From positions 62,001-126,000 of the forward strand of contig JACCWM010000106.1 of the NCBI GenBank assembly GCA_013697635.1: a stretch of DNA of 64,000 nt, given 5' to 3'. The DNA comes from Lujinxingiaceae bacterium. GTDB lineage: Bacteria > Myxococcota_A > Bradymonadia > Bradymonadales > Bradymonadaceae. Position numbers and translations under genes: made by a program. Shown here piece after piece: positions 5,242 through 11,200 of this stretch. Under the pieces are notes generated by a model. The model did no database searches. It saw only the letters and a program-made list of their open reading frames with translations, and had not been told where the DNA came from. The number at the start of each line of letters is the position of its first letter. Positions within the stretch are counted from its first letter, which is position 1.

Positions 5242-6396
5242 TCAGGTAACGACGAACTCCATCCTTACCTCATTTCCAACTAAAAGTATGTTACTGGATT
5301 GTGAACTTTGTTTCCTGCCCTGAGAATCAGAGGCTCGAATCGTAACGCTGTGGCTTCCGGCAGCGAGACCCTCGAAGACAATCGCCCAGGTGACCCATAC
5401 GTTGGGCAGGGGCCAGCTCTGATTGGCTTGCAAGGTATCGTTCATGGCCGTTTGCAGCGCCGGACTGAGGTCGACGCGAACGGCGCCGGGCTCGTCGCCA
5501 ATGAGCTCGGCGGCGACGAAGTCACCATCGTCGAGGGAGACCTCGACGCGATCGATGCGGTCGTCGCCGACCACGGCGATGCCCGATATCGTGACATCGG
5601 GGCCCGCAACCTCGGCGCGCGCGGTGCGCGGCGAGGTGATCGTCGAGCCCAGCGCTACGGTGCCCGGGTTGTCGATCAGGGCGTTGCCTGGAAAAAGTAC
5701 GGTCTCGTATTGGCCAAAGGCTGCGCCGTCACGGGTCAGATCAAGGCGATCGATCCATTTGACGTTCTTGTAGCCCCACATCTCCGGGATGATCAGGCGC
5801 GCCGGGCCACCGCGAAGCCTGGTCATCGGCTCGCCGTTGAGCTCGTAGGCGATGATCGCGGGCAGGGCCTCGGCCGCCGGCTCGAGCACCCGTGAGAGCG
5901 CCAGATTGCTCGTGAACCCGTCAGCCCCAAAGGTGCGAATCTTGACGCCGTCGGCCGGCAGGTCGAGCCCCTCGAACAAATCCGCGAGCGGAATGCCTTT
6001 GAAGATGCCGTTGGCCACCAGGGTCAGGAGCGGCGGGCCGACGTTGAGGCTGAAGACGCAGCGCATCGTCTTCCAATAACTGACGGCCTTGCCTTCGGAC
6101 TCGAGCGCCTTGAGCGCTGCGTGATCGAATTCGCCCAGCGTGTCATTGCCCTGGGTGATGCGAAGCCGCCAGCTTTCGGGCGTCAGCCTGGGCGAGGCCT
6201 CCTTGGAGAGGCCCTGGCCGCTTTGCCAGTACCAGATACCGTCGTCAGCCGGGGTCAGAAACGGTTCCGTGCCCGTCAGGCCTCCCTTTTGTTCGACCGA
6301 GACGAACTCGCAGCCGGACATGATGCGAATGCCCAAAAAGCCGACCGCGCCCAGGCCCAATTGGCGAAGAAACTCTCGTCGTGTTCGCTCGCTCAT
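5242..6396 (-). CDS. Tat-exported lipoprotein with sulfite-oxidase-fold molybdopterin domain
   Basis: The 384-residue protein begins with a twin-arginine motif (TRREFL, Arg6-Arg7), a hydrophobic stretch and Cys29 in MSGC, so it may be exported folded by Tat and lipidated. The body matches the oxidoreductase molybdopterin-binding domain: MRCV with Cys113 at the place of the molybdenum-ligating cysteine, and the later pattern [20 protein letters not shown], where the sulfite oxidase family contacts the pterin phosphate. The C-terminus (about 270-384) is a beta-sandwich like the dimerisation domain of that family. Its ATG is one nucleotide beyond the stop of the upstream beta-barrel gene, so translation is coupled. 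The substrate is not predictable; YedY-like reductases and sulfite dehydrogenases are both possible. Confidence 0.85.
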
Positions 6397-6397
6397 C

Positions 6398-7291
6398 TCA
6401 TTGTCCGAAGGTGATCGCCAGACCAAGGATCAGGTCGTGGCTCTTGACCGTGTTGACCCCGGCCACCGTGTACAAGTAATCGACGCTGACCTGGTAGCGC
6501 TCGCCGAAGCTGGCGATCACGCTCGGCCCGACTTTGGTGTAGCGCTGCGTCGTCGGCGAGAGGCTGAAGATATCGAGCGCCTGCGGGCTTCCAAGGCCGT
6601 AGACGCCGTTGACCACGCCGCGAAGCCAGATCCAGTCGGTCGGTCCGTACCCCACCTCGAGGCTGTAGGGAATCTCATCGGAGTAGTCGACCACGGTGCC
6701 AAGCGCCGTGGTGCGCTCGCCACGAAAGCGAAATCCGAGCTCGCCGGAAGTGTAGATCGGCAGCGGATAGAAGCTCTTGCCGACGAGCAGGCGAACGTCG
6801 TGCTCGTAGACCCCGTTGCCCAGTGTGGGCGTCATGCCTTCGAGATCGGGCGAGTAGCCCGTGGGCATCTTGGTGGCAAATGAGAGCGCCACGACGGCCG
6901 GCATATCCACGAATTGGTAGCGCATGCCAAGGGTCAGATCGCCCACGCCGGTTGTGCGCGCCGTCTGGAAGGTGCTGTCGAGCTCGAGGCGTTGAAAGGC
7001 GCCCGAGCCAAAGACGGTCAACCGCGGCATCAGCCCGAACTCGCCATAGAAATAAAGGCCCATCGCGCCAAATGAGCCTGGAATATCCTCGCTCAAGAGC
7101 GGAAACACCTCCCCGCGGTCCTTGTACTGGTCTTTTGCGGCCGAGAGGCCATAGGAGAGCTTTAAATAGGCCCCCTTGTCGGGCTGCGACCAGGCACCGC
7201 CCAAGGCTGCACTGGAGCTGAAAACGAGCGCGAGGCCAGCGGCCGCGGCCAAAAACGAGGCGAGGGCGCGTGGTCGGATTTTATCGATCAT
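6398..7291 (-). CDS. Outer-membrane beta-barrel protein
   Basis: This 297-residue protein has a Sec signal (residues 1-31, cleavage near ALGGA). The rest alternates short amphipathic strands with aromatic residues, in the style of transporter- or OmpA-like barrels, and ends in LAITFGQ, close to the usual hydrophobic C-terminal strand. GGAG lies 8 nt before the ATG at 7291; an in-frame upstream ATG at 7360 lacks a site. It heads a cluster with the molybdopterin oxidoreductase (1-nt gap) and the amidohydrolase lipoprotein, which suggests a pore or anchor serving secreted enzymes. No specific family is recognised. Confidence 0.75.
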   Translation of the reverse strand: MIDKIRPRALASFLAAAAGLALVFSSSAALGGAWSQPDKGAYLKLSYGLSAAKDQYKDRGEVFPLLSEDIPGSFGAMGLYFYGEFGLMPRLTVFGSGAFQRLELDSTFQTARTTGVGDLTLGMRYQFVDMPAVVALSFATKMPTGYSPDLEGMTPTLGNGVYEHDVRLLVGKSFYPLPIYTSGELGFRFRGERTTALGTVVDYSDEIPYSLEVGYGPTDWIWLRGVVNGVYGLGSPQALDIFSLSPTTQRYTKVGPSVIASFGERYQVSVDYLYTVAGVNTVKSHDLILGLAITFGQ

Positions 7292-7422
7292 AGGCAAATA
7301 CTCCGGGCGTACCTCGGTACTGAACAGCGCGCGCTCGGCGCGATGGTAACTTATAGGCAACGTCGAAAAGACACAACAGGGCCCCGGCGTGAAAGGCCAA
7401 CAAGGCGCCGTGCTATTCCCCG

Positions 7423-8352
7423 CTAGTATATGCCCAGGATGTCTGCAGCCTGGCGCGCGGCTACGGCGCCGGCGGCCACGGCGGTCGCGACGCTGCGAAG
7501 CGGGTTGGTCGTGATGTCGCCGATGGCAAGGATGTTGGGATGGCTCGTGTGCTGGCGCGCGTCGACGCAGACATAGCCGGCACTGAACGCGAGATCGGGG
7601 GTGATGCTTGGGAGAACAGGCTCGACGCCGACGCGCACGAACAAACAGGCGACGTCGAGGTCTCTGTGGCCGTTGGGCGTAGCGAGCTTGAGGCGACAGC
7701 CGGTGGTCAGGGAGACGATGCGCTCGATCGTCGTCGGGCGCGGATGCACGACGATATGGCGGTGGGCCAGGGCTTCGACGACGAAGGCCTTGCGGGCTTT
7801 GATCTGGTCGTTTCGAAGCAGCATGTGCACCGTGCAGCCGTGACGAGCCAGATGCAGGGCGTTTTCGAAGCCGGCGTCACCGCCGCCGACGACGGCGACC
7901 GCACGATTGGCAAAGCGAGGCGCGTCGGCCATGGCCGACTGGCTGACATGGGCTCCAAGGCCCTCGGCTTCACCCGGAACGCCGAGGAGGCGGTAGCGTG
8001 TTCCAGTGGCAAGGATCACCAGTCGGGCAACACGGGCCGGGCGGCCCGCGAGCTGGAGCTCACAGCCAAGATCACCGGCGACAATCGCCTGGACTTGGGC
8101 GGCCTCTGGCAAGGCGATCGATTTTCTCTTGAGGTGGGCGGCCAGGCCCTCGATCAAGGCGAGGCCATCGTCGTAGTGGGCCGGCGGATAGTTGGTGATC
8201 GGGTTGTGAACGCGGGCGAGCGTGCCGCCGAGCTTGCCGTCGCTGGACAGCCAGGCAAATGGCACGCGCAGCGCATCGAGCCAAATCGCAGCGCTGATGC
8301 CGGCGGCGCCGGCGCCGATAAGCGCGCAGTCGATGTCGGCCAAATGATTCAT
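7423..8352 (-). CDS. NAD(P)H-dependent flavoprotein reductase (thioredoxin-reductase-like, no CxxC)
   Basis: The 309-residue protein has two Rossmann motifs: GAGAAG near residue 12 for FAD and GGGDAGFENA near 153 for NAD(P)H, plus the late IGDIT motif that contacts FAD. This is the domain order of low-molecular-weight thioredoxin reductases and FNR2-type ferredoxin-NADP reductases. The redox-active CxxC expected in the second domain of thioredoxin reductase is absent, so it should pass electrons to another acceptor. The start is the ATG at 8352, which overlaps the folE stop (ATGA), so the genes are translationally coupled. The electron acceptor is unknown, and a link to pterin metabolism is only positional. 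Confidence 0.85.
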   Translation of the reverse strand: MNHLADIDCALIGAGAAGISAAIWLDALRVPFAWLSSDGKLGGTLARVHNPITNYPPAHYDDGLALIEGLAAHLKRKSIALPEAAQVQAIVAGDLGCELQLAGRPARVARLVILATGTRYRLLGVPGEAEGLGAHVSQSAMADAPRFANRAVAVVGGGDAGFENALHLARHGCTVHMLLRNDQIKARKAFVVEALAHRHIVVHPRPTTIERIVSLTTGCRLKLATPNGHRDLDVACLFVRVGVEPVLPSITPDLAFSAGYVCVDARQHTSHPNILAIGDITTNPLRSVATAVAAGAVAARQAADILGIY

Positions 8353-8924
8353 AGAGGCTGCTGCGCGCTCGAGAACTGAGCGATCAACTCCTGGCGAAGC
8401 TCGCCCTCGCACAGCGAGCCACGGGCGGCAAAGGAGACGAGCGTGCCACGCTTCTTGGCGCCGCGAAGCTCCATGCAAAGCTGGCGCGCGCGGCAGCGCA
8501 CGAGCAGCCCGCGCGGCTTGAGATGGCTCGCGAGGTAGTCGGCGATCTCGGCCACGAGACGCTCTTGAACCTGTGGGCGCGCGGCGAAATGGTCGATGAC
8601 GCGCCCGATGCTGCCAAAGCCCACCATCTGCTCGTCGGCGACATAGGCGACGTCGATCGTGCCAAAAAACGGCACGAGGTGGTGCACGCAAAGCGACGAG
8701 AAGGGTAGCCCGAGCAGCACGATGGGCCCACTGTGCGCCTCGTGGTTTGCCGAGGTCACGCCAAAGACGCTCAGCACAGGCGGTGCGGCGCTGATGCCGG
8801 CGCTCATCTCGGCCATCATCGTTGCAAAGCGCTGGGGTGTGCGCTCGAGTTCGGCGTCGATCTCGGGGGTCAGGCCAAGCGCGTCGAGAAAGGCTCGAAA
8901 ATGCCGGGTTGCTTCAGAGTTCAT
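8349..8924 (-). CDS. folE: GTP cyclohydrolase I family protein, His179-to-Gln variant
   Basis: In the family this enzyme opens the GTP imidazole ring and forms dihydroneopterin triphosphate for folate. The 191-residue protein aligns with E. coli FolE without gaps through the active site at an offset of 31: Cys79, His81 and His82 match Cys110, His112 and His113; ARPQVQERL is conserved; Cys150 matches the zinc ligand Cys181. The residue matching the catalytic His179 is Gln148 (codon CAG). The Glu next to the zinc Cys is Val80. Zinc binding should be retained, but full turnover is doubtful. The T-fold pattern and the ARPQVQERL block rule out QueF. It is followed by a coupled flavoprotein gene and preceded by ruvB (gap 29 nt). 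Confidence 0.88.
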   Translation of the reverse strand: MNSEATRHFRAFLDALGLTPEIDAELERTPQRFATMMAEMSAGISAAPPVLSVFGVTSANHEAHSGPIVLLGLPFSSLCVHHLVPFFGTIDVAYVADEQMVGFGSIGRVIDHFAARPQVQERLVAEIADYLASHLKPRGLLVRCRARQLCMELRGAKKRGTLVSFAARGSLCEGELRQELIAQFSSAQQPL

Positions 8925-8953: not shown

Positions 8954-9976
8954 TTAGACGAGCGAACCCTGGGAGCCGGGCAAGGGTTGGTTGAGATGGC
9001 GAAAAGCGTTGGCCGTGGCCACGCGCCCGCGCGGTGTGCGTTGGATGAAGCCGAGCTGCAACAAATAGGGCTCGACGACCTCCTCGATGGTGTCCTTCTC
9101 CTCGCCGATGCTCGAGGCAAGTGTATCCAGACCGGTCGGTCCGCCGCCAAACTTGATCACGAGCGCGTCGAGGTAGAGCCGGTCGAGATAGTCGAAGCCG
9201 GCGTGGTCGACCTCCAAGCGCATCAGCGCGTAGTCTGCCAGATCGTCGTCGATCGATGTGTGGTTGCCCACGATCGCGTAGTCGCGCACACGGTTGAGCA
9301 GGCGATTGGAGATGCGCGGGGTGCCGCGGCTTCGCCGGGCGATCTCGGAGGCGCCTTTGTCGGTGATCCCGATGTCGAGGATGCGCGCCGAGCGCTTGAT
9401 CACGTGGGTGAGCTGCTCGACGTTGTAGTAGTCCAGCCGCGCCACATAGCCGTAGCGATCGCGAAGCGGCGCGCTCAACAAGCCCGAGCGCGTCGTCGCC
9501 CCGACCAACGTAAAGGGCGGCAGCGCAAGTTTCATGCTGCGCGCGTGCGGGCCGTCGCCGATCACAATGTCAAAGTAGAAATCCTCCATGGCCGGATACA
9601 GGTTCTCCTCGACGATGGCGTTCATCCGGTGACACTCGTCGATGAAGAGGATGTCGCCTTGCTCGAGCGCACTGAGGATGCCGGCCAGGTCGCCTTTTTT
9701 CTCCAGCGCCGGGCCGCTCGTGGTGTGCACTTTAACGCCCATCTCATGGGCCAGGATGTGGGCCATCGAAGTCTTGCCCAAGCCGGGCGGCCCGCACAGT
9801 AAGATATGATCGAGCGGGGCCTTTCGAATCTTGGCCGACTGGACCATCACCCGCAGGTTGTCCTTGATCGAGTCCTGCCCGACGAAATCTTCGAAGCGCG
9901 TTGGCCGCAGCCATTGCTCGAACTTCTCGTCGTCGGCCTCGGTGAGCGTCATTTCGATGTTCGGATCTCGTGCCAT
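8954..9976 (-). CDS. ruvB: Holliday junction branch-migration ATPase RuvB
   Basis: RuvB hexamers drive branch migration of Holliday junctions together with RuvA. The 340-residue protein has the normal length. Walker A is GPPGLGKT (about 62-69), Walker B is DECHR (the family usually has DEIHR), sensor 1 is GATTRSG, and the arginine-finger region APLRDRYG follows. The C-terminal winged helix ends with GFIQRTPRGR. AGGA lies 9 nt before the ATG. It is transcribed after ruvC and ruvA. The Ile-to-Cys change in Walker B is conservative in position and unlikely to abolish activity. Confidence 0.97.
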   Translation of the reverse strand: MARDPNIEMTLTEADDEKFEQWLRPTRFEDFVGQDSIKDNLRVMVQSAKIRKAPLDHILLCGPPGLGKTSMAHILAHEMGVKVHTTSGPALEKKGDLAGILSALEQGDILFIDECHRMNAIVEENLYPAMEDFYFDIVIGDGPHARSMKLALPPFTLVGATTRSGLLSAPLRDRYGYVARLDYYNVEQLTHVIKRSARILDIGITDKGASEIARRSRGTPRISNRLLNRVRDYAIVGNHTSIDDDLADYALMRLEVDHAGFDYLDRLYLDALVIKFGGGPTGLDTLASSIGEEKDTIEEVVEPYLLQLGFIQRTPRGRVATANAFRHLNQPLPGSQGSLV

Positions 9977-10028: not shown

Positions 10029-10628
10029 TCAACGCAACAGCTTGAGCGCCTGTCGCAGCAGAACTTCGATCGGCGCCGAGGCCTCGTCTTGGGCCAGAAT
10101 CTGCACGACTGTGGCGTCGACCATCGCCGGCGCATAGCCCAGGTTCAAGAGCGCCGAGCGCAGGTCGTCGCTGACGCCGGGGATAACCGTCGCCTGGGGC
10201 GGCGAGAGATCGCCCAGATCGATGTCGTCGAGCGAGTTCTTGAGCTCCAAGATCAAGCGCTGGGCAGTTTTCTTGCCCACGCCGCTGACCTTGGTGAGTT
10301 GCGTGACATTGTTGGTGTGCACGGCCATCACGAAGTCACCCGGGCTGAGCTCCGAGAGCACAGCGAGCGCCATCTTCGGGCCCACGCCGCTGACACCGAT
10401 GAGTTTGGTGAAGAGGCGCTTGACCTCGCTGGCGCTGAAGCCAAAGAGCTGGATGGCGTCCTCGCGCACGCTGGTGTGTACGAACAGGCTGACGCGACCC
10501 TCACCATCTTCTTTGATGCGGCCCAGCGTGCCCATGGGCACGTGGACCAGGTAGCCCACGCCTCCTACATCGAGGATGATCGAGTCCAACGTGTAGCTGT
10601 GAACGCGTCCAATCAAGTGTGCGATCAT
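10029..10628 (-). CDS. ruvA: Holliday junction DNA-binding subunit RuvA
   Basis: RuvA tetramers hold the four-way junction and load RuvB. The 199-residue protein begins MIAHLIGRV, has the OB-fold domain I, the two helix-hairpin-helix segments of domain II (GVSGVGPKMAL and VSGVGKKTAQRL, about 70-125) and the short domain III that contacts RuvB at the C-terminus. Its ATG is 11 nt beyond the ruvC stop, and ruvB starts 52 nt further on, so ruvCAB is one transcription unit. Confidence 0.97.
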   Translation of the reverse strand: MIAHLIGRVHSYTLDSIILDVGGVGYLVHVPMGTLGRIKEDGEGRVSLFVHTSVREDAIQLFGFSASEVKRLFTKLIGVSGVGPKMALAVLSELSPGDFVMAVHTNNVTQLTKVSGVGKKTAQRLILELKNSLDDIDLGDLSPPQATVIPGVSDDLRSALLNLGYAPAMVDATVVQILAQDEASAPIEVLLRQALKLLR

Positions 10629-10639
10629 CGTGTGCTTCC

Positions 10640-11128
10640 CTAGGCTTGCAGCCGACGTTTGAAGTCATGGGCCTGGCAGTGGCAAATTGCGACGGCCAGG
10701 GCATCGGCGGCGTCTTCGACCGGATCGACGCTCAGACTGAGCACAAGGCGCACCATGCGCTGCATCTGCTCTTTGGTGGCGCGGCCTTGGCCGGTGACGG
10801 CCTGCTTGACGCTGGCCGGGGGGTATTCGTGCAAATCGAGCTGAGCGTGCTGCAGTGCGAGCAACGAGACGCCGCGCGCGTGGCCAAGCTTGAGGCTCGA
10901 CATGGCGTTTTTGGCCATGAAGATCGATTCGACCGCGGCCTGCTCCGGCTTCCACTCATCGAGGATACCCGAGATGCCACGGTAAATGATCTCGAGGCGG
11001 TCGATAAAGACCTTGGCGCCGGTGGCGTTGATGCGCCCGCTGGTCACATGCTCGAGCGTGGTTCCCTTCTTTCTGACGATTCCATAGCCGGTATAGCGGC
11101 TACCGGGGTCGATTCCAATAACAAGCAA
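10640..11128 (-). CDS. ruvC: Holliday junction resolvase RuvC
   Basis: RuvC cuts Holliday junctions symmetrically. The RNase H-fold acidic residues are visible: Asp in GIDPGS near the start, Glu in AAVESIF, and the Asp pair in EDAADALA. I chose the TTG at 11128 because GGGAG lies 8 nt upstream and the family usually has only a few residues before GIDPGS; this gives 162 residues. An in-frame ATG at 11191 would add 21 atypical residues and has no clear ribosome site. It sits between the phosphatase gene and ruvA. Confidence 0.93.
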   Translation of the reverse strand: MLVIGIDPGSRYTGYGIVRKKGTTLEHVTSGRINATGAKVFIDRLEIIYRGISGILDEWKPEQAAVESIFMAKNAMSSLKLGHARGVSLLALQHAQLDLHEYPPASVKQAVTGQGRATKEQMQRMVRLVLSLSVDPVEDAADALAVAICHCQAHDFKRRLQA

Positions 11129-11200
11129 GGCGCTGACTCCCGGGCACAAGTGAGAGGTCCATTCTCTTTCAGGGCGGTCAGCGGGAATCATGCCGTCGGA

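Follow-up and report, generated by a model that had tools for sequence, protein, structure and literature searches.

The gene at positions 8349–8924 of the window (the whole 64,000-nucleotide stretch of Lujinxingiaceae bacterium DNA that was analysed) is a divergent form of the gene for GTP cyclohydrolase I (GCYH-I; FolE), the enzyme that starts folate synthesis, and this form is common to many related bacteria. His179 (E. coli numbering, used throughout unless stated otherwise) is regarded as necessary for the latter half of the GCYH-I reaction; here, the corresponding residue is glutamine and residue 183 is glutamate (the Q179/E183 form). With a probability of roughly 0.55, we consider the protein to be a functional, zinc-dependent GCYH-I with a rewired active site, supplying dihydroneopterin triphosphate for folate and for a PTPS/QueD-like enzyme.

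Because the Q179 form is shared by many relatives, often with no other known GCYH-I, it would represent either a natural exception to the textbook mechanism or the source of a new pterin-like product. The changes at residues 111, 135, 136, 179 and 183 open the mechanism of FolE to a direct test, in which either another residue does the work of His179 or a different compound is made. They also flag a group of FolE annotations for which automatic transfer is unwise.

A FolE fold with an altered active site

The gene and its diagnostic residues are listed below, with correspondences taken from an alignment to E. coli FolE (reference sequence identical to PDB 1fbx/1gtp).

8349–8924, minus strand: folE-like gene, GTP cyclohydrolase I homologue of the Q179/E183 form (191 aa, ATG start)
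8679–8690, minus strand: C79-V80-H81-H82, equivalent to E. coli C110-E111-H112-H113; the zinc ligands and His112 are retained but Glu111 is not
8610–8615, minus strand: G104-S105, replacing E. coli S135-K136
8481–8483, minus strand: Gln148 (codon CAG), in the place of E. coli His179
8475–8477, minus strand: Cys150, equivalent to the E. coli zinc ligand Cys181
8469–8471, minus strand: Glu152 (codon GAG), aligned with E. coli Lys183 and the same in every member of the clade described below

The protein belongs to the GCYH-I family: it matches PF01227 (Pfam GTP_cyclohydroI) with 147.8 bits against a cut-off of 27, and its AlphaFold model (pLDDT 94.9) has the FolE fold, the best 50 PDB matches listed all being GCYH-I (TM up to about 0.87). 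This model is of a single chain, and the active sites of the GCYH-I family are formed between three subunits (PMC6718149). Against the NCBIfam folE equivalog (TIGR00063), by which canonical FolE is recognised, the score of 119.8 bits falls short of the cut-off of 181.6. A Pfam profile search gave no match of the protein to PF02649 (FolE2, GCYH-IB).

The original prediction had aligned the protein to the E. coli enzyme by an offset of 31 residues and had read glutamine (CAG) at the place of His179; both readings are correct (C79 = C110, H81 = H112, H82 = H113, C150 = C181 and Q148 = H179), and the open reading frame lies on the minus strand. The zinc triad Cys110/His113/Cys181 is present as C79/H82/C150, together with His112 as H81. 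The canonical residues His179, Ser135, Lys136 and Glu111 are replaced by Q148, G104, S105 and V80, and the last three of these replacements, along with Glu152 at residue 183, are changes beyond those first noticed.

Distribution and evolution of the Q179/E183 form

A profile search found a PF01227 protein in 47 of the 57 genomes of the window's class, with most scores in a low band of 114–170 bits, apart from canonical copies at 224–260 bits. The low-band members of the class, members from a phylum-wide search, and nine loci taken from genome contigs were aligned, giving a clade of 55 non-redundant sequences, all with Glu at 183. They come from Blastocatellia, Eisenbacteria and Myxococcota, with many of the last belonging to the window's class. 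Of the 55, 49 have Gln at residue 179 and the other six have His. Since Gln is kept in so many clade members from independent assemblies, Gln148 is neither a read error nor a chance, one-off mutation.

Other positions have changed with it. Residue 111 is A, V, L or G in all 55 sequences; residue 135 is G in 49; residue 136 is S, G, A, W or C; and Leu148 has become Pro in 53. C110, H112, H113, Q151, E152 and C181 are invariant. Among 28 canonical sequences, H179, S135 and E111 are present in every one and K136 in 27, in a set that was itself picked by E111 and K/R136.

The lost catalytic histidine and the low score against the folE equivalog are what a decaying or non-catalytic relative of FolE (a pseudoenzyme) might display. 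We regard such a protein as very improbable here, given that the residues that bind zinc and the base do not vary across phyla, that the fold is predicted confidently, and that the gene is kept as an only copy in a conserved operon position.

A further alternative is a GCYH-I-like enzyme with a substrate other than GTP (e.g. a guanine nucleotide of fewer phosphates), from which basic residues at 68 and 136 have been lost accordingly. Position 68, which is K or R in 18 of the 28 canonical sequences, is mostly E or D in the clade, and Lys136 has given way to S, G or A; in one family (f4), R185 is lost too, as is R65 for the most part. We take these four positions to bind the triphosphate. Even so, 96% of the 55 sequences retain R139, 85% R65, and 80% R185, so that the phosphate pocket probably remains, and the PTPS of the window's genome would be expected to require a triphosphate; a changed substrate is therefore improbable, if less so than loss of catalysis.

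A maximum-likelihood tree, made by a quick method with the trait columns left out (moderate support, midpoint root), parts the clade from canonical FolE, except for two Eisenbacteria sequences (His179, Glu183) that lie just across the midpoint root. Four His/Gln changes are needed on this tree, the simplest account being that Gln was gained once and reverted to His three times; about three such reversions suggest that Gln and His may substitute for one another at residue 179.

That E183 compensates for the loss of E111 is unsupported as a general rule: a CPHH group in family f6 and the FolE of genome G122 are both without E111 and have no E183. The CPHH group is a second divergent group of FolE (loci L018, L020, L022, L023, L029, L043, L045, L046, L050 and L054), with CPHH for CEHH, K136 lost, and His179 kept; in several genomes, its FolE is the only PF01227 protein. 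The G122 protein (locus L141) has Ala at 111 with S135, K136 and H179 kept and is a possible intermediate.

Gene neighbourhood

The genes flanking the folE-like gene run in the same direction.

7423–8352, minus strand: thioredoxin-reductase-fold flavoprotein without CxxC; its start codon overlaps the folE stop codon (ATGA)
8954–9976, minus strand: ruvB, directly upstream of the folE-like gene
10029–10628, minus strand: ruvA
10640–11191, minus strand: ruvC

The flavoprotein had been put forward as a coupled neighbour that could act on the FolE product. Its coupling is real: in addition to the ATGA overlap, it stands beside the Q179/E183 folE in 19/19 loci of the window's own family (f1) and 5/5 of family f3, and it is a neighbour also in f10 and, one gene further along, in Eisenbacteria. 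It is not an obligate partner, because other families carry other partners. An ABC ATPase and permease are next to folE in 10/10 f27/f29 loci, three of which have an NMT1/THI5-like binding protein (the remaining loci end early or give no match), and a radical-SAM protein and a calcineurin-like phosphoesterase are found in 4/5 f19 loci. A canonical thioredoxin reductase is ruled out as the partner, the redox-active CxxC being missing from the window's flavoprotein and from the rest of its neighbourhood cluster.

The loci in which folE is followed by ABC transporter genes are L132, L134, L137, L139, L140 and L142–L146. For the L132 binding protein, the nearest PDB entry is the formyl-aminomethyl-pyrimidine-binding protein 3ix1 (E 4e-7). 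Downstream of the flavoprotein in the window, a Phenol_MetA_deg-domain protein (6398–7360) adjoins a molybdopterin-binding oxidoreductase domain protein (5242–6426, minus strand). A search of the surroundings of the gene in 15 relatives for a riboswitch gave only tRNA and 5S rRNA matches in Rfam.

The conserved partners of the Q179/E183 form are thus non-folate genes, and neither the flavoprotein nor the ABC genes, the radical-SAM gene or the phosphoesterase gene adjoins any of the 19 canonical folE loci compared. These operons (f1, f3, f10 and Eisenbacteria; f27/f29; f19), and the fact that residues 111, 135, 136, 179 and 183 differ together, are consistent with an enzyme that opens the ring of the guanine nucleotide and then halts at the formylamino-pyrimidine or diverts it, or that yields another pterin or pyrimidine; the product would feed an uncharacterised pathway involving the flavoprotein, an importer, or the pair of radical-SAM protein and phosphoesterase. 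We consider this possible but not likely. The partners vary by family, and operon mates can be unrelated: the folE–flavoprotein pair mostly follows ruvC-ruvA-ruvB in f1 and f3, so conserved adjacency alone is no proof of a shared pathway.

Folate supply in the host genome and its relatives

The window's genome is 99.45% complete. It had been suggested that the folE-like gene might be a second copy with a separate role; a search across the genome for a second folE found none, the protein is the sole PF01227 protein encoded, and FolE2 (PF02649) is absent by profile search. Taken as a whole, the original interpretation is partly supported. The genome carries FolB, FolK, FolP, DHFR and a PTPS that is E. 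coli QueD-like and has the catalytic Cys, so that it presumably uses dihydroneopterin triphosphate. FolK together with FolP has been taken to mark de novo synthesis of folate (PMC1971073), and a survey of auxotrophy in bradymonads leaves folate unmentioned (PMC7460792). In two single-contig relatives (G002 and G013), a search for FolK, PTPS, FolB and DHFR found all four, and there too this FolE is the only one and no FolE2 was found. Including the window's genome, a second FolE or a FolE2 was looked for and not found in 27 of the examined genomes; where these belong to the class, most still have the folate enzymes. It is simplest to suppose that the FolE-like protein makes the dihydroneopterin triphosphate on which those enzymes depend.

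The picture differs elsewhere. Another GCYH-I candidate is found in 25 of the 52 examined genomes with the Q179/E183 form (FolE2 in 21; a second PF01227 protein in four, one of which was seen to be canonical), and in those genomes the form need not supply folate. FolE2 is present in 21/52 genomes with this form versus 2/23 with canonical FolE (Fisher p 0.006, uncorrected for shared ancestry). Such coexistence argues for a different product, and a fuller version of that alternative would have a FolE form without the deformylation machinery make a ring-opened or new guanine-derived compound for an undescribed pathway with the flavoprotein (elsewhere with the importer, or with the radical-SAM protein and phosphoesterase), with dihydroneopterin for folate coming from FolE2 or another enzyme. 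We consider this version, too, possible but not likely. Counting against a different product are the 27 examined genomes in which neither a second FolE nor FolE2 was found. Nor would the product replace that of GTP cyclohydrolase II: RibA-type proteins occur in the window's genome and nearly all others, which rules out a riboflavin-pathway substitute. A queuosine-only role is likewise unsupported, families f1–f5 being without a convincing QueC. High-scoring PTPS proteins are found in many f1, f4 and f5 genomes, and in the five f1 genomes examined they are QueD-like with the catalytic Cys.

Two fairly complete genomes of family f4 (G032 and G036) have FolK, FolB, PTPS and DHFR, and neither FolE nor FolE2 was found in them; an assembly gap, salvage, or another GCYH-I has to be allowed for in the group.

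A possible reaction route

His179 mutants of the E. coli enzyme reportedly stop at the formylamino compound. If so, the Q179 form either completes the later steps with other residues or stops early. A rewired GCYH-I that completes them is the reading that we prefer, and it could work as follows. Zinc held by C79, H82 and C150 would, with H81, open the imidazole ring in the same way as in canonical FolE, while R108, Q120 and E121 (numbering of the protein itself) would still hold the nucleotide. The steps assigned to His179 in E. coli are proton transfer around N7/C8 and formate release; for these, Gln148 may position the water, aided either by an acid gained in this form, for which Glu152 is a candidate, or by His81. 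Counting against the preferred reading are the report on the His179 mutants, the additional loss of S135 and K136, the non-folate neighbours, and the two f4 genomes described above.

Comparison with known systems

FolE2 (GCYH-IB) yields dihydroneopterin triphosphate and does not strictly depend on zinc (PMC6718149; PMC1971073); it constitutes a different Pfam family, to which, as described above, the FolE-like protein has no match. QueF (PF14489) has a related fold; the protein matches it weakly, over 59 residues and below the Pfam cut-off, and unlike QueF it keeps the FolE zinc triad. Searches of a collection of open-access papers for His179 and for natural variants of FolE gave no account of either.

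Canonical FolE (GCYH-IA; E. coli 1gtp/1fbx, Listeria 4uqf and M. tuberculosis 9p8z) is the closest system, sharing with the FolE-like protein the fold, the zinc ligands C110/H113/C181, and His112, Q151, E152 and R139. Identity to solved GCYH-I structures is at most 36% among the matches listed. The protein departs from canonical FolE by H179 to Q, E111 to V, S135 to G, K136 to S and K183 to E, by the loss of one residue from the loop that follows the motif, and by a score below the curated folE cut-off.

The E. coli His179 mutants of FolE, which according to Bracher (1999), as cited in PMC7750480, form the ring-opened formylamino compound, are missing the same histidine. They were made in an enzyme that has E111, S135 and K136 and no Glu183, whereas in the natural form the whole neighbourhood of the residue has been changed and kept in evolution.
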